From the NCBI RefSeq assembly GCF_007115095.1, contig NZ_SULH01000012.1, forward strand, positions 1 to 64,000: DNA of 64,000 nucleotides. The letters run 5' to 3'. Under the pieces are notes generated by a model that worked only from the letters and a program-made list of their open reading frames with translations, did no database searches and had not been told where the DNA came from. The translations under genes and the position numbers were made by a program. Origin of the DNA: Levilactobacillus enshiensis (GTDB lineage Bacteria > Bacillota > Bacilli > Lactobacillales > Lactobacillaceae). Positions 32,479-63,691 of the stretch are shown one piece after another; positions within the stretch are counted from its first letter, which is position 1, and every line of letters begins with the position of its first letter.

Positions 32479-32534
32479 ACAGGTCACATCCTTTCCGTTA
32501 TTTCAAAAAATAGAAATTACATTAAATTCTTTGC

Positions 32535-33156
32535 AACTAAAGATTAAATTCAGGCCTCATTCTCGTATGAGTAAGTAGTCACGCCGCTAAATTAGTATAA
32601 CTTGGACGCACTCCGGCTGCCAGGAATTCCACCTGCTGTGGGGACGCTTCAGCCTGGAAGAGCACCAGTCTTCTCGCTCGCTTTGAAGCCACGAAGAACA
32701 CGTGTCTCCAAAGTCGCCCGTGATGTAAGCTGGCTGAGAAGCACCATCTAACATCACCTTCACGGCCGGTTCCATCCCTGGCCTCCTCCGGCGCTGACTG
32801 TGTTTTATCATAACAACAGTTAGAAAACGGGGATATTTATCATTTTCGCTCAATTATTAACGACTGTTGCAGTCATTATCTCAGTCGTCTGAGAACACTG
32901 TATAAGCCGAGAGGTCGGCAGATATGGGCTCAGGCGCGTCGTTCTACTTAGTCAGTAAGTGCATTTCTTACTGGCTTAGTAGAAAACCAAGCTTGTAGAC
33001 TCGGTTTTTTCGAGGCTTCAAGTTGTGTTCGCACCGTTCCAGCCCATATCTGCCGGCCGGTAAGGCGAAGCAACCACTACGTTGCCAAGCCTGAATCCAA
33101 TCTTCATTGCTAGAACAGGCATCGCCGGTACTTTGACACTTTCAACCCTTAGTTTG
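32535..33156 (-). repeat. MITE-like repeat copy R1 (long, composite)
   Basis: About 620 bp. Its inner parts match copy R5 (62762-63288) in inverted orientation: a module with CCCATATCTGCC-type dyads (32880-33110) and a module beginning CAGTCAGCGCCGGAGGAGG read on the minus strand (32583-32810). The ends are degenerate forms of the R5 inverted repeat (about 32537-32548 and 33140-33156). Fills most of the recX-flavodoxin gap. The 88-codon frame inside (32587-32853) is frameshifted in R5 and so is not a conserved gene. Confidence 0.75.
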
Positions 33157-33392
33157 CAATATAAAAATTCTTTCGTCTGATCAGCTGACACCCAGCGACC
33201 GAAATAGCGTGACCACAACTTAAATCTTCGCAACCATTCTACCAGTTCTCTAGCTACGATGCTGAGCTTAACAGGTAATTAGTTAAGCCATCATCTTTTC
33301 TCAGGCGACACTGTGTGTGGTCATCACGGTCCCTAGCCACCAAGCGACCGACCTGCTATAATTAACCACATACTGACAAGGGAGTGGTCAAA

Positions 33393-36847: not shown

Positions 36848-37090
36848 AATTTTCCCTCCAATGATGATGCTAATTAAGGTCAATTATAGCAGATACCGTC
36901 GCCGAGTGTTACGCTATCCGCCCCATCCCCCAAAATAACCCCACTTGGTTTTCTGCTATGAATTAATGTCCCCCCACAACCACCCAGAATATGTTAAGGC
37001 AACTTCCTTAACTAGCTGTGTTGCGCACCTCACCTGTTACTATTGTCAAAGATTGTGCTAACGTTTAGGTTAGTCATTAAAAGTCTTTAC

Positions 37091-37330
37091 CTAAGGGTTG
37101 AAAGCCGAAATTCATACCTCATTCCAATACTGGTTAGCTATGAGCTCAGGCGTATCGTTCGACTTAGTCAATAAATGACCTGCGTCCTGACTTAGTAGAA
37201 AACTAACCTTGTAGATTCGGTTCTTTCGCGGCTTCCAGTTGTGTTCGCACCGATCCAGTTCATAGCTGCCGGTTGGTAAGGCGAGAAGACCACGCTGCTA
37301 CCTAGTTTGAGATCTAATGTTACGGCCAAA
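37091..37330 (+). repeat. MITE-like repeat copy R2 (partial)
   Basis: Begins with CTAAGGGTTGAAAG, a variant of the R5 terminal repeat, then matches the dyad module of R1 (GAGCTCAGGCGTATCGTT, GACTTAGTAGAAAAC, GTTGTGTTCGCACCGATCCAG, GGTAAGGCGAG). The second module is missing and no right end is clear. A GTTAAGG/CCTTAAC dyad lies just upstream near 37000-37018. This is in the 575-bp wecB to glycosyltransferase gap; the rest of the gap shows nothing. Confidence 0.6.
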
Positions 37331-38486: not shown

Positions 38487-39842
38487 TTAGTGGATAATCA
38501 TGTTCATTAATAAGACCATTAGCAGACCCACGACCGAGATGACCGTTTCCAGCGTCGTCCACACTTGGAACGTTTGCTTAACGCTCAGGTCAAAGTACTC
38601 GGAGAACATCCAGAATCCAGCATCGTTCACATGTGAGGCAGCCAATGAACCGGCACCAATCGCCAAGGCAATCATGACGGGGTCGGCGCCCAACGTGTGC
38701 ATCAGTGGCGTGATCAGCCCGGAAGCTGTCATTCCAGAAACCGTTGCTGAACCTAATGAGATCCGTAAGATAACGGTAATCAGCCAAGCTAACAGAATTG
38801 GTGAGAACTTGGAATGCATCATCATCTGCTGTACCGCTTTACCAACACCACCGTCGATCAGCACCTGCTTAAACGCAGATCCCCCAGCGATAACCATTAA
38901 CAGCATCGCAATCGACTTGATAGCGTCTTCCAACGTCGCACTGATTTCCTTCATGGTGCGCCCACGATGGAAACCCATCGACCAAATGGCAAAGAGCAAC
39001 GCAATGACCATGGCGATGACGGGGTTCCCGAGCATCGTAATCACGGCATCTAGACCGTGTGGATTTTTCGGAGCAGTTCCCCCGTTAACGACCATTTGAT
39101 AAATCGTTGCCAAAATCATGAAGACCACTGGGAACAACGATGTGAAGACGGCCAAACCGAAGCCTGGCGTTTCCTTCAGATCAAATTCCTTAACTTCACC
39201 AAAGGCGGGTAAGGACTTCTTGATGACAAAGAGATCTGGGTTAAACCGACGAATGACCCGCGTCCAGATTGGACCAGCGACGATCACACACGGAATAGCC
39301 ACGATGATCCCGACCATCAACATTTCACCAACGTTGGCGCCTAAGGCAGTCGCAACGGCGGTTGGTGATGGTTGGGGTGGGAGGAATCCTTGTGTAGCCG
39401 ACAGGGCGGCCGCCATAGAAATCCCCAGGTAGAGGAATGGCACTTCAGCTTCCAGCGCAACCGCGAATACGATTGGCGTCACTAAGACCAGTCCCACTTC
39501 AAACAATAGAGAAATCCCGATTAAGAAGGAAGCCACCACAATGGCTACCTGTAAACGTTTCTTCCCAAAGATACTGATCAAGGTCCGGGCAATTCGGTAC
39601 GATCCACCGGCGTCAGAAACTAACCGGCCAATCATCGCTCCAAAACCAAAGACGATAATCAGTTCGCCCATGGAGCTACCGATCCCGTTTTTGATGGAAT
39701 CCGCAATGTGTGCGGGGTTCATGCCCAAACCAAGCGCTACCAAAATAGACGTAGCGATCAGCGAAACGAAGGTATTTAACTTTACTCGAATAATTAAGAA
39801 GAGCAATAGTAAAATACCCAACAACAAAATCACGAACTGCAT
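38487..39842 (-). CDS. gntP: Gluconate permease, GntP family (copy 1)
   Basis: 451 residues from ATG 39842 with an AGAGAG-type site; the frame extends upstream but the added part is not GntP-like. About twelve membrane segments. GntP family patterns: FGFGAMIGRLVSDAGGSYRIA, FFEVGLVLVTPI-like stretch, GFLPPQPSPTAVATALGANVG and SHVNDAGFWMFSEYF near the end. Gluconate/H+ symporter by family. It is close to copy 2 at 48776 but stands away from gnd-gntK, and may have a different sugar-acid preference. Confidence 0.92.
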   Translation of the reverse strand: MQFVILLLGILLLLFLIIRVKLNTFVSLIATSILVALGLGMNPAHIADSIKNGIGSSMGELIIVFGFGAMIGRLVSDAGGSYRIARTLISIFGKKRLQVAIVVASFLIGISLLFEVGLVLVTPIVFAVALEAEVPFLYLGISMAAALSATQGFLPPQPSPTAVATALGANVGEMLMVGIIVAIPCVIVAGPIWTRVIRRFNPDLFVIKKSLPAFGEVKEFDLKETPGFGLAVFTSLFPVVFMILATIYQMVVNGGTAPKNPHGLDAVITMLGNPVIAMVIALLFAIWSMGFHRGRTMKEISATLEDAIKSIAMLLMVIAGGSAFKQVLIDGGVGKAVQQMMMHSKFSPILLAWLITVILRISLGSATVSGMTASGLITPLMHTLGADPVMIALAIGAGSLAASHVNDAGFWMFSEYFDLSVKQTFQVWTTLETVISVVGLLMVLLMNMIIH

Positions 39843-40759: not shown

Positions 40760-40832
40760 TGGCCCCACCCGGACTCGAACCGGGATCATTCGCTTAGGAG
40801 GCGAGTGCCCTATCCAGTTGTGCTATAGGGCC
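40760..40832 (-). tRNA. tRNA-Arg (anticodon CCU)
   Basis: 73 nt on the minus strand. Acceptor stem GGCCCTA with TGGGGCC (one G-U pair), discriminator A, anticodon stem-loop CTCGC-CTCCTAA-GCGAA giving anticodon CCT, and TpsiC arm CCGGG-TTCGAGT-CCCGG-type. CCA is not encoded. It reads AGG codons. Flanked by the helicase terminator upstream and its own terminator downstream. Confidence 0.93.
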
Positions 40833-43974: not shown

Positions 43975-44012
43975 TTAGGGTCTTAGGCTCTAACTTTTTT
44001 ATTGGGCTGACA

Positions 44013-44183
44013 GCACGGACGACCTTGAAGACACGTGATTTTCGTGGCTTCAAAGCGAGCGAGAAGACTGGTGTTCTGCCAGTCTGAAGCGACCCCACAG
44101 CAGGCGGAGTGCACCCCATTTAGCGGTGCGACTGCTTACCCACACTGAGATGAAATCGAATTTTATCTTTCAACCTTTAGTCA
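44013..44183 (+). repeat. MITE-like repeat copy R3 (right part)
   Basis: Matches R5 from GAAGACACGTG onward (GTGGCTTCAAAGCGAGCGAG, CCCCACAGCAGGCGGA) and ends in TTTCAACCTTTAGTCA (44168-44183), identical to the R5 right terminal repeat. The left half is missing. It lies between the DUF4828-like gene and the GH25-like gene. Confidence 0.75.
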
Positions 44184-48775: not shown

Positions 48776-50134
48776 ATGGAGCTTATCGCACTTTTAATCG
48801 GGGTCATCTTCTTATTGGTCCTCATCATCAAGTTTAAGATCAATACTTTCGTTTCCCTGATTCTTACTTCTGTTCTAACAGCCATGCTGCTGGGAATGGA
48901 CCTCACCAAAATTGCTACGACGATTGAGGCTGGGATTGGGAGCCAACTTGGCGAACTGTCCTTAGTCTTTGGGTTTGGTGCCATGCTGGGTCGGTTAGTT
49001 GCCGATGCCGGTGGGGCCTACGTGATTGCCACAACACTGATTGATAAATTTGGGAAACAGCGTCTGCAATTAGCCATTATGTTAGCGTCATTTATTCTTG
49101 GGATTGCACTGTTCTTCGAAGTTGGGATGGTCTTGTTGATCCCTATCGTCTTCGCCATTGCCGTTGAAGCCGAAGTACCAATTCTCTACTTGGGGATTTC
49201 CATGGCGGCCGCTTTGTCCGTTACCCATGGATTCTTACCACCTCACCCGGCACCAGTTGCCATTGCGCAAGTTTTAGGTGCCAACGATGGTAAGGTTCTC
49301 TTGTTCGGTTTAGTCGTTGCGATTCCTGCAGCCATCGTTGCCGGACCAATGTTCACCAAGCTCGCTCAGAAATTTGCGCCAGCTGCATTTGAACGTAAAG
49401 GAAACTTATCTTCATTAGGTGAAGTTAAGACCTTCAAGCCTTCTGAAGCACCTAGCTTTGGCCTGTCCGTTCTGACTTCCCTCTTCCCCGTGATCTTAAT
49501 GGCCATCACGACCATCTACAAGATGACGGTCGATGGTGGGGCAACTCCTACCAAGAATGCATCGATGCTAGACCAAATCGTTGCCTTGATCGGTGACCCA
49601 GCTATCGCGATGTTGATTTCATTGCTCGTTGCTATGTTTACCATGGGCTGGGGTCGGAATCGAAAGACCGCAGACATCATGGCAACCTTGGAAAATGCCG
49701 TTAAGTCAATTGCTATGCTGCTGTTAGTTATTGGTGGTGGTGGCGCCTTCAAGCAAGTCCTCATCGACGGTGGTGTTGGTAAAGAAGTTGCCAAGCTCTT
49801 CATTGACTCCAACATGTCCCCACTGATCTTAGGGTGGTTAGTCGCTGTGGTCCTCCGGGTTGCTTTAGGTTCCGCAACCGTTTCTGCTTTGACCGCCGCT
49901 GGGATTGTTGCCCCACTGATGGCACAATCCGGTGTTGATCCTGCCTTGATGGTACTGGCCATTGGTGCCGGTTCCTTAGCCGCATCTCACGTGAACGATG
50001 CTGGGTTCTGGATGTTCAGAGAATACTTTGATTTAACCGTTAAGCAAACGTTGAGTATTTGGACGGTATTGGAAACCGTGATTTCCATCGTCGGTATTCT
50101 GATCGTGCTGATTCTGAACATGGCATTCCATTAA
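48776..50134 (+). CDS. gntP: Gluconate permease, GntP family (copy 2)
   Basis: 452 residues, about twelve membrane segments, clearly a paralogue of the gene at 38487 (shared FGFGAMLGRLVADAGG, GFLPPHPAPVAIAQVLGAN and SHVNDAGFWMFREYF). It brings in gluconate with H+. The ATG has AAAGGG. It sits 169 bp after gntK with a separate promoter, completing the uptake-kinase-dehydrogenase module. Strong terminator at 50169. Confidence 0.95.
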   Translation: MELIALLIGVIFLLVLIIKFKINTFVSLILTSVLTAMLLGMDLTKIATTIEAGIGSQLGELSLVFGFGAMLGRLVADAGGAYVIATTLIDKFGKQRLQLAIMLASFILGIALFFEVGMVLLIPIVFAIAVEAEVPILYLGISMAAALSVTHGFLPPHPAPVAIAQVLGANDGKVLLFGLVVAIPAAIVAGPMFTKLAQKFAPAAFERKGNLSSLGEVKTFKPSEAPSFGLSVLTSLFPVILMAITTIYKMTVDGGATPTKNASMLDQIVALIGDPAIAMLISLLVAMFTMGWGRNRKTADIMATLENAVKSIAMLLLVIGGGGAFKQVLIDGGVGKEVAKLFIDSNMSPLILGWLVAVVLRVALGSATVSALTAAGIVAPLMAQSGVDPALMVLAIGAGSLAASHVNDAGFWMFREYFDLTVKQTLSIWTVLETVISIVGILIVLILNMAFH

Positions 50135-50205: not shown

Positions 50206-50336
50206 TGACTAAAGGCTGAAAGCACAATGTAAGCCGACCGGTAAGGCGACCAGACCACCAAGTTGCCTAGTTTTAGGACCATTGTTGCTAGCACAGGCAT
50301 GGGCCGTCCTTTGGAACTTGCAGCCTTTGCTTGTCA
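50206..50336 (+). repeat. MITE-like repeat copy R4 (short)
   Basis: 131 bp. Left end TGACTAAAGGCTGAAA (15 of 16 matches to the R5 terminal repeat). Right end is a degenerate reverse copy (about 50318-50336). The inside matches only the outer part of the R1 dyad module (GGTAAGGCGAC, GCTAGCACAGGCAT). It looks like an internally deleted copy. Located between gntP and the permease gene. Confidence 0.7.
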
Positions 50337-51826: not shown

Positions 51827-51840
51827 TTGCGAACTAAAGT

Positions 51841-51957
51841 TCCGAAGTACGGCTCAAGCCTGTTCTACCAGCAAAAGTGACCGTAAACTTAAACAACTTG
51901 GTGGTCTGGGCGCCTTACAGCCGGAGTGCGCCCAATTTAAACTACTTTAACGGGGCT
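51841..51957 (+). repeat. MITE-like repeat copy R6 (fragment)
   Basis: Partial match to the family: AAGCCTGTTCTACCAGCAA, ACAACTTGGTGGTCTGGGCGCCTTACAGCCGG in outline, then AGTGCGCCCAATTTAAACTA as in the end of the R1/R5 second module. No terminal repeat remains. It lies between the permease terminator and the gshA stop. Confidence 0.5.
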
Positions 51958-61922: not shown

Positions 61923-62735
61923 TTAACGCTGACGCACGCTCTCATCAGCATCCTCCTCTAAAAAAAGTTCTTTGAGTTTAGTGAGGTCATCTTCATTGAG
62001 CCTAAGTTGTTCACGACAGTATGCCTTAATCCCACCATACTGATCATTGATAACTGCCACCATCTGGTCAAAATAGTCATCCCGAACAATGGACAAATCA
62101 AAAATCGATTGCAGGTAAGCCAGATTATCGCTGACTAACTTAGCCCCATTGAGTCGATTATTAATCCTTATTGCAGAGGCCCAATTACTATCCAAGTAGT
62201 CCGCCTTAATGGCCTTGTCCGAAATACCCAATATCATCAGCGTTAGTGCGGTTAAAACGCCAGTTCGATCCTTACCAGAAGAGCAGTGGAAAAGAATTCC
62301 TCCAGGCGTAGCGTTAAGCAATGACTTGAAGAATTGATGATACGCCTGTTGTGACTCCATACCGTCAATTAATTGACGATAACTATGCATCATCAGCTGG
62401 AATCCAGCCTGCTTATCCGTCAATTGATCAGCCAGACTCCTCAGATTCGCTGTACTCTCTGTCAAATCTTTTCTGGAGACTGAAATTTGTAAATAACGAA
62501 TCCCGCTACCCAAACGATCTGGATAGGTCGTCACTTCCCTTGGCGATCTCAAATCAATAACAGTTCGTACCCCATAATCATAAAGTGTCTTTTGGTCCAC
62601 ACTATCCAAGTCAGACAAATAGCCTGAACGAATTAACCGATGGTGCTTGGTCATCAATCCATTGGGGGTTTGATAGCCACCCAAATCACGACAATTGAAG
62701 CCATTATTCAATTTAATCTCTTGCGCAAGTTGCAT
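61923..62735 (-). CDS. Tyrosine-protein phosphatase (DSP-like)
   Basis: 270 residues. Signature FHCSSGKDRTGVLTALTLMILG (P-loop C-x5-R, ~148-170), with upstream FNCRDLGGYQT and VIDLRSPREV (general acid loop), the pattern of PTP-like proteins of the Lip/IphP group. It acts on phosphotyrosine or phosphoinositides. It starts the phosphatase-FMN reductase-eutJ unit. Its link to microcompartments is only positional. ATG with GGGGG about 7 nt upstream. Confidence 0.92.
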   Translation of the reverse strand: MQLAQEIKLNNGFNCRDLGGYQTPNGLMTKHHRLIRSGYLSDLDSVDQKTLYDYGVRTVIDLRSPREVTTYPDRLGSGIRYLQISVSRKDLTESTANLRSLADQLTDKQAGFQLMMHSYRQLIDGMESQQAYHQFFKSLLNATPGGILFHCSSGKDRTGVLTALTLMILGISDKAIKADYLDSNWASAIRINNRLNGAKLVSDNLAYLQSIFDLSIVRDDYFDQMVAVINDQYGGIKAYCREQLRLNEDDLTKLKELFLEEDADESVRQR

Positions 62736-62761
62736 GACTATCTCCCCCCTTTATTTATCAA

Positions 62762-63288
62762 TGACTAAAGGTTGAAAATTCCAGAGTACCGACTATGTCT
62801 GCTCTAGTAACAACAATGGAGCTAAAAATAAGTAACATAGTAGTTAACGGTATGAGCTGGAAACAGTGCAAACAACGCACCTGAGCCCATATCTGCCGAC
62901 CTTTCGGCTTACGTTGTGCGCTCAGAAAACATTGAAACTAACTACAACCATTATTATTGACTGGACTAAAACCGTTAAGTAACTGTCGTCTAGAGCGTTT
63001 TACCTGATAGAACACAGTCAGCACCGGAGGAGGTCAGGAATGGAGCCAGCCGTGAAGGTGATGTTAGGTGGTGTTTTTAGCCAGCTTACATCACGGGCGA
63101 CTTTGGAGACACGCGGTTTTCGTGGCTTCAAATCGAGCGAGAAGACTGGTGTTCTTCCAGTCTGAAGCGTCCCCACAGCAGGCGGAATTTCTGACAGCCG
63201 TAGTGTGCCGGATTTAGACTAGTTTAATGGGACAAACGCTTACCAATACCAAGTTGAAACCTGAGCTTCATCTTTCAACCTTTAGTCA
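62762..63288 (+). repeat. MITE-like repeat copy R5 (best copy)
   Basis: 527 bp bounded by perfect 16-bp inverted repeats, TGACTAAAGGTTGAAA (62762-62777) and TTTCAACCTTTAGTCA (63273-63288). First module (to about 62940) has the CCATATCTGCCGAC..TCGGCTTA dyad. The second (63002-63235) begins ACAGTCAGCACCGGAGGAGG. It contains an internal hairpin (AGACTGG/CCAGTCT, 63143-63163) and ends in AGTGTGCCGG. It fills nearly all of the 611-bp gap between pduU and the phosphatase gene. No transposase is encoded, and no sure target duplication is seen. Confidence 0.8.
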
Positions 63289-63346
63289 ATTACTAAGCCC
63301 AATAAGAAAAGAGCCGCGGCCTAACGCTGTGGCCCTTATTTCTTAT

Positions 63347-63691
63347 TTAGGTTCTTGTAATTTTGGGGATGTCGAAGCCCAGGAGCTCATGTAACTTAGT
63401 GATGACCTCTTTCAGGGCAGACTCAACCTCTGACACTTCGCCAACGATGACCACCGAGCCGCTAAATCGATCGATAAATCCCAGCGTCACATTACTAGAT
63501 TTAGTGGCTATATCACCAGCAATGATTGCTGCCTCACTAGGCGTAATCGTCAAAATTCCTAGTGCATTTTTCGGCGTCTGAATACCCAATTTTTCATAAA
63601 TATCAGGAGTGGGATTAGCAACAATATGTGCTAATGTCACCTGCTTACCGGGCACATACTCCTGGATTGTCCGTTCAATATCACGACCCAT
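63347..63691 (-). CDS. pduU: Microcompartment shell protein PduU
   Basis: 114 residues, a BMC domain with the permuted PduU/EutS type. [20 protein letters not shown] (~8-27) and [23 protein letters not shown] plus [23 protein letters not shown] match Salmonella PduU very closely from memory. PduU forms a hexamer with a capped beta-barrel in the shell of the propanediol-using compartment. ATG with GAGGGA. Start codon 13 bp after the small upstream gene. Confidence 0.96.

Follow-up and report, generated by a model that had tools for sequence, protein, structure and literature searches.

The 64,000-nucleotide stretch of Levilactobacillus enshiensis DNA analysed here (contig NZ_SULH01000012.1, positions 1 to 64,000; hereafter the window) contains a repeat element, R5 (62762..63288, plus strand), which, together with its relatives, is well supported as a miniature inverted-repeat transposable element (MITE). 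Taken as a whole, the best explanation, which can be held with considerable confidence, is that R5 is a MITE that was moved in trans by an IS4-type transposase and that carries a captured pair of divergent modules acting as folded RNA. The original prediction, made from the letters of the window, had recognised the MITE-like family and missed its cargo. The interior is not derived from an insertion sequence (IS) but is an inverted pair of structured modules, here called A and B, which belong to a family that extends beyond the MITE. The MITE family is itself far larger than the window shows.

The ends of R5 were given in the original prediction as perfect terminal inverted repeats (TIRs) of 16 bp. 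The letters are exact: the 16-mer TGACTAAAGGTTGAAA occurs at 62762-62777 on the plus strand, at 63273-63288 on the minus strand and again at 44168-44183 on the minus strand. It is found with one mismatch at 50206 and with three at 33140 and 37088, and the scan of the window with at most three mismatches thus returns six matches, compared with 0.74 expected from shuffled sequences. The length has to be corrected. The outer TGA of the R5 16-mer forms the last three bases of the target duplication on the left, TCAATGA (62758..62764), and the right-hand TCA opens its counterpart, TCAATTA (63286..63292), so the true inverted repeat is the 13-mer CTAAAGGTTGAAA, at 62765-62777 and 63273-63285, and the outer three bases belong to the duplication. 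In copies elsewhere, the positions of the outer TGA are taken by TAA, TTA or CGA. Both ends of R5 match the 13-mer at 13 of 13 positions, which gives the terminal inverted repeat of a MITE, and the two 7-bp duplications, flush with the TIRs, differ by one mismatch.

The genome of origin is a 3.07-Mb draft in 57 contigs, and the search with R5 and its ends that had been proposed for it returned many further copies. There are at least 46 BLAST matches to R5 (the best 40 of 146 candidates were scored), at least 87 A modules (covariance model of one module, with the best 102 of 890 first-look candidates scored) and 25 exact occurrences of CTAAAGGTTGAAA, with none for a reversed-pattern control. 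Near-exact 16-mers adjoin a module in 19 of 22 cases, and the other three resemble remnants when inspected by eye. Within the genus, R5 is matched by BLAST in 31 of 35 genomes, the A model in 33 of 34, and the 13-mer in 24 of 34, where the reversed control yields four matches over all 34 genomes combined. A scan of GTDB with a 25-base core pattern found at least 107 stretches, and among the matches listed 80 of 80 belong to Levilactobacillus. At E 1e-5, the module core has no match in 72,556 plasmid records or in 50,697 phage records, in both of which the share of Levilactobacillus is uncounted.

Target duplications are not restricted to R5. Twenty-eight copies have both ends recognisable, with at most three mismatches per end, and a 7-bp direct repeat lies flush with these ends exactly in 7 of them and with at most one mismatch in 10. 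Shuffled pairings gave a mean of 0.425 and a maximum of 3, and the family thus has the target duplication of a MITE; seven base pairs in the flush position was the clearest among 30 settings of length and offset that were tried. The remaining 18 of the 28 two-ended copies show no such repeat.

It had been supposed that the transposase is supplied from elsewhere, and a close sister species indeed has an IS with the same ends. The trail began in some relatives where the 13-mer, close to the start of a contig, encloses unrelated sequence; one such place revealed part of a transposase gene, from which an intact IS of 1559 bp (L227:1417-2975) was reached. Both of its ends are exact copies of CTAAAGGTTGAAA, and it has a 489-codon open frame and an 8-bp target duplication, CTGATTAA. 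Its protein scores 469.9 bits against NCBIfam NF049925 transpos_IS4_4 (cut-off 250) and 49.2 against Pfam DDE_Tnp_1 (cut-off 23). The YREK signature follows the spacing rule Y-2-R-3-E-6-K, and a YREK-like motif, YARRWQIEGYFKVAK, can be discerned by eye in the protein (P0001). The description of the IS4 family gives the ISPepr1 subgroup a length of 1500-1600 bp, ends of the form YT-AA-YTT---A and a duplication of 7-8 bp (PMC2266710). The partner IS resembles it in its 1559 bp, CT ends, 8-bp duplication and YREK-like motif, and CTAAAGGTTGAAA fits 7 of the 8 end positions stated there, the assignment being made by size, ends and duplication, without a subgroup tree. The partner is taken as an IS4-family element of ISPepr1-like type. 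Relatives of its transposase occur in 11 of 34 genomes of the genus, and a search of 72,556 plasmid records at E 1e-30 found them on 62, with identities below 60% for 57 of these; in the own draft genome, a 200-residue C-terminal query found no relative.

Unlike such an IS, R5 has no transposase and shares with the partner only the terminal 13-16 bp, apart from chance-level matches. An interior formed by deletion of the IS was considered and rejected: a blastn comparison of R5 and the 33-kb copy with the IS returns the ends and chance-level short matches. R5 is a non-autonomous transposon, its 13-bp ends identical to those of an ISPepr1-type IS and its insertion duplicating 7-8 bp. It was probably moved in trans by a transposase from the IS present in the sister species, as the identical ends and the matching duplication length suggest. 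As a separate observation, one mobile element appears by eye to be nested in another at L178:1-100 and L211 (the start of a contig of G002), where an ISL3-like end is situated some 25 bp inward from a right end of the family.

Empty sites, which the original prediction had suggested looking for in other strains, were found between species. At the R5 locus, two close species have 45 and 39 bp in place of 551 and 533 bp of the window; R5 is absent in G013 and G002, and G008 holds a different copy at the same locus. Other sites of the window are similar, with A remnants in one species, B in another and nothing in a third. At the 32.5-kb site, the copy of a sister species has different end positions, so it reads as an independent insertion. 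It is extremely improbable that the copies are ordinary vertical intergenic repeats that never moved. The copies in one other genus do stand at matching positions, but for the clade with TIRs this notion is contradicted by the inverted ends, the IS that matches them, the target duplications and the sites found empty.

The cargo is a pair of structured modules that face away from each other. The right half of the element encodes A on the plus strand and the left half B on the minus strand, and the A and B models match many of the same places in relatives; the two modules are therefore homologous. Among 126 pairs of neighbouring modules less than 500 bp apart, 113 are divergent, 13 lie on the same strand and none is convergent, in a set of loci that was partly chosen by the A core, with some overlap, and in which several of the same-strand cases are split matches. 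The length of the spacer has its mode at 122-125 bp. Protein coding in the modules was ruled out, as the length of the core varies in steps that are not multiples of three.

The fold of the modules is supported by covariation. In the genus-wide alignment of 69 A modules, 54 pairs are supported and 96.2% of cells are paired, whereas only 31.5-43.3% are paired when the columns are slid by 1-3. Both sides have changed in 33 of these pairs (270 such cells, compared with 70.4 in shuffled alignments), and double-sided changes occur in 9 of the 11 helices. One of the 69 rows, L013:1890-2088, is a B-side match in the wrong orientation, and it was excluded from the folding by strand and energy. For B, 48 pairs are supported with 98.4% paired, and 15 pairs changed on both sides (84 cells versus 25.8 shuffled). 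The consensus energy is lower in sense than in antisense for both A (-64.0 versus -40.2) and B (-48.0 versus -30.5). G-U outnumbers A-C at paired positions by 172:31 in A and 464:24 in B, versus 95:42 and 176:37 in the best antisense structures, although some excess of G-U is expected because each structure was chosen on its own strand. Among copies of the own genome, A has a median identity of 0.911, B of 0.897 and the spacer of 0.754, with overlapping ranges. Strong evidence for selection on the folds of these divergent, homologous modules is thus provided by the compensatory changes and by conservation above that of the internal spacers.

The modules extend well beyond the MITE. The A model matches 42 of 201 genomes of the family in 9 of 40 genera, with two or more matches in 38 of the 42 (the best 17 per genome were scored). 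Three genomes of the genus (G014, G030 and G023) hold 124 to 150 A modules, yet zero or one exact 13-bp end. Divergent pairs make up 16 of 20 copies in another genus, 7 of 10 in G030 and 5 of 10 in G014, and none of these 40 is convergent. No inverted ends were detected around the 16 pairs of the other genus, where the longest inverted match is 9-13, by a test in which only 6 of 19 known end pairs of Levilactobacillus reach 14 or more and whose mismatched-pair control is inflated by related loci (means of 12.5-14.2). In G030/G014, 4 of 10 pairs match inverted over 17-35 nt, which by eye is a motif of the module and not ends. Copies of the other genus lie at matching loci in different species, and in 8 of 11 comparisons the module identity is 0.93-0.98, above the spacer and the flanks in each; over all 11, the spacers (10 comparisons) range from 0.44 to 0.91 and the flanks from 0.39 to 0.89. 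These comparisons share species and are not independent. One locus (L281, L286, L297) is weaker, with module identities of 0.88, 0.83 and 0.74, the last below its flanks. The wider distribution suggests that the module pair predates the MITE and came to be enclosed by IS ends within this clade. It can be proposed, tentatively and with slightly less than even confidence, that the modules form a new structured RNA class in the Lactobacillaceae, whose divergent pairs number from a few to well over 100 module copies in a genome. Selection would maintain them at fixed loci in one genus or more, and in Levilactobacillus they would have been captured between IS4-family ends.

It is proposed, with moderate confidence, that the modules most likely act as folded RNA within read-through transcripts. 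Since they point outwards, a transcript arriving from either side would hold one correctly oriented module, whichever the direction of insertion; this is the least secure step of the mechanism. The main rivals of a read-through RNA are a role in single-stranded DNA and a purely selfish role. In the former, which is unlikely, the modules would act as single-stranded or cruciform DNA in the manner of a giant REPIN, the divergent pair being the unit that is moved or recognised by a DNA-processing enzyme. Divergent doublets, singlets, intergenic positions, the lack of plasmid and phage matches at E 1e-5 and the retention at the same loci across species of the other genus all fit this notion. REPINs are inverted doublets predicted to fold in single-stranded DNA or mRNA (PMC3116915). 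The family shares with REPINs and their RAYTs the inverted doublets of a palindromic module, here the 113 divergent pairs without a convergent one, as well as the singlets and the intergenic location (PMC3116915). It differs in that the modules are about 140-190 nt long and multi-branched, not short palindromes, and in the DDE-transposon ends and duplications of this clade; such inverted ends and target duplications mean a DDE transposase. A link to Y1 transposases or RAYTs is not supported: at the level of presence per genome, Y1 genes do not track the modules among 20 genomes. No Y1 match was found in eight module-bearing genomes of these 20 (G002, G008, G033, G018, G093, G148, G123 and G212), and matches occur in G024 and G042, both without a module match.

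The surroundings of the copies bear on the role of the modules. Only 1 of 200 non-redundant copies lies in an open reading frame (ORF) of more than 200 amino acids; 37 are unclassifiable, and the 162 classified copies comprise 57 between convergent genes, 86 in tandem settings and 19 between divergent genes. The 580 intergenic gaps used for comparison, in which gaps with copies are included, comprise 126 convergent, 315 tandem and 139 divergent ones. In the tandem settings, 39 A/B pairs have B in sense in 27 cases and A in 12. By eye, A modules at L311, L315 and L317 of G014 lie shortly upstream of a stretch resembling a ribosome-binding site and a start codon, on the same strand and in the manner of a 5' untranslated region (UTR).

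A number of results weigh against the proposed explanation. There is no preference for sense modules in tandem gene settings (72 sense and 71 antisense; singletons, 26 and 26), which is evidence against a role as a simple UTR element and makes the read-through step weaker. The spacer is not enriched in promoter-like sequences: sigma-70-like scores of at least 8 occur in 20 and 21 of 73 spacers, compared with 20.3 and 20.6 after shuffling. The "further pair types" of B, one of five measures of covariation, are no better than shuffled (38 versus 36.5). The strand bias falls short of proving RNA, since single-stranded DNA tolerates G-T wobble as well. The inverted-end test is weak, recovering so few of its positive controls, and leaves the capture of an end-less resident unproven. 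The flanks at the empty sites have diverged, and no clean pre-insertion sequence is seen. Finally, the closest two of 20 paired copies are only 92% alike over both modules and the spacer; there is thus no sign of recent movement in the own genome, and the copies are old.

Some of these results also bear on the remaining rivals. If the modules were independent small RNAs transcribed from divergent promoters in the central spacer, their fixed outward orientation and the spacer mode of about 122-125 bp would be accounted for. This is, however, rather improbable in view of the missing excess of sigma-70-like promoters (scores of at least 9 occur in 8 and 3 of the 73 spacers, versus 5.4 and 5.1 shuffled) and of the run of five T within 110 nt that follows only 51 of 280 modules. 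A purely selfish repeat, in which the fold is kept only for transposition or copying and has no role for the host, would agree with the absence of a sense bias and with the high turnover in the genus, where each of three sister species carries its own copies, with deletions of their own, in orthologous intergenic regions. Nevertheless, different species of the other genus share modules at corresponding loci, in most comparisons with higher identity than the spacer and flanks, and the modules of the own genome have diverged less than the spacer; there is perhaps some chance that the repeat is purely selfish, but it is doubtful. A MITE with captured modules that act as folded RNA is retained as the preferred explanation.

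Several known repeat families and large RNAs invite comparison. The bcr1-bcr3 repeats of the Bacillus cereus group are called MITE-like and often located in UTRs (PMC3446304), and BOX and RUP of pneumococcus are folded intergenic families (PMC2267715). All of these are, like the present repeats, short, intergenic, present in many copies, without a protein and folded; the present family differs in its partner IS with the same ends, in a cargo that is a pair of large multi-branched modules and in the extension of the module family to other genera. GOLLD, ROOL and OLE, large RNAs of Firmicutes, are likewise conserved large RNAs revealed by comparative genomics (PMC12286853), but the modules have no Rfam match and occur in many copies per genome and in divergent pairs. 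Above the gathering threshold, Rfam 15 finds nothing in the window but a tRNA gene at 40760-40832 on the minus strand; by E-value, R5 has two chance-level matches only, and five loci from relatives have none. Among the titles and abstract openings listed by searches of open-licence PubMed Central, none describes such a repeat in Lactobacillaceae.

Relatives of R5 are present at all of the places in the window where the original prediction had put them, and they are internally deleted in differing ways, as it had claimed. R5 itself keeps its A module (63021..63213, plus strand), which is the first row of the A alignment; its covariance-model match at 63049-63179 scores 137.1 bits with a model that was built with the R5 row included. 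The B side is mostly deleted, and the B profile recognises only about 30 nt of its 5' part (62871..62899, minus strand) in a weak match of 16.9 bits. The near full-length copy reported in inverted orientation at 32535-33156 is confirmed on the minus strand at 32537..33152, with A at 32602-32793 (minus), B at 32915-33100 (plus) and a spacer of about 120 bp. It is bounded by an exact 7-bp target duplication, TTTGCAA, on the left (32530..32536) and on the right (33153..33159). The other four copies lie on the plus strand. A decayed copy at 37088..37318 retains a left end with three mismatches to the 16-mer and a B module (37134-37318), and a 5'-deleted copy at 43995..44183 consists of the 3' part of an A module and the exact right end, which had been correctly noticed for 44013-44183. 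The last two are short deletion remnants. The one at 50206..50336 was thought to have both ends; its left end, with one mismatch, stands and is followed by the 3' part of a B module (50231-50284, 30 bits), while the right end is only a weak match by eye. In the other (51834..51957), comparison by eye with aligned copies shows an eroded left end fused to the 3' end of an A module.

Next to R5, a gene at 63347-63691 encodes a protein with a bacterial microcompartment (BMC) domain, and a gene at 61923-62735 encodes a protein of the tyrosine phosphatase family. Two ORF regions of the window, 38487-38684 and 49937-50134, show a 72% inverted match; they are probably paralogous genes unrelated to the repeat.

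MITEs of bacteria are commonly regarded as junk with hairpins, and the usual copy numbers of riboswitches or small RNAs per genome are far below those of this module. Here, the cargo of a MITE is a multi-branched fold with clear covariation that is found in nine genera of one family and is not in Rfam 15. If the proposed explanation is true, capture has made a resident RNA into cargo that is mobile and independent of orientation. The module offers a natural comparison between one genus, in which it is resident and stays conserved at fixed loci, and another, in which it is mobile and turns over rapidly; this allows one to ask whether the transposon spreads a useful or a selfish RNA.
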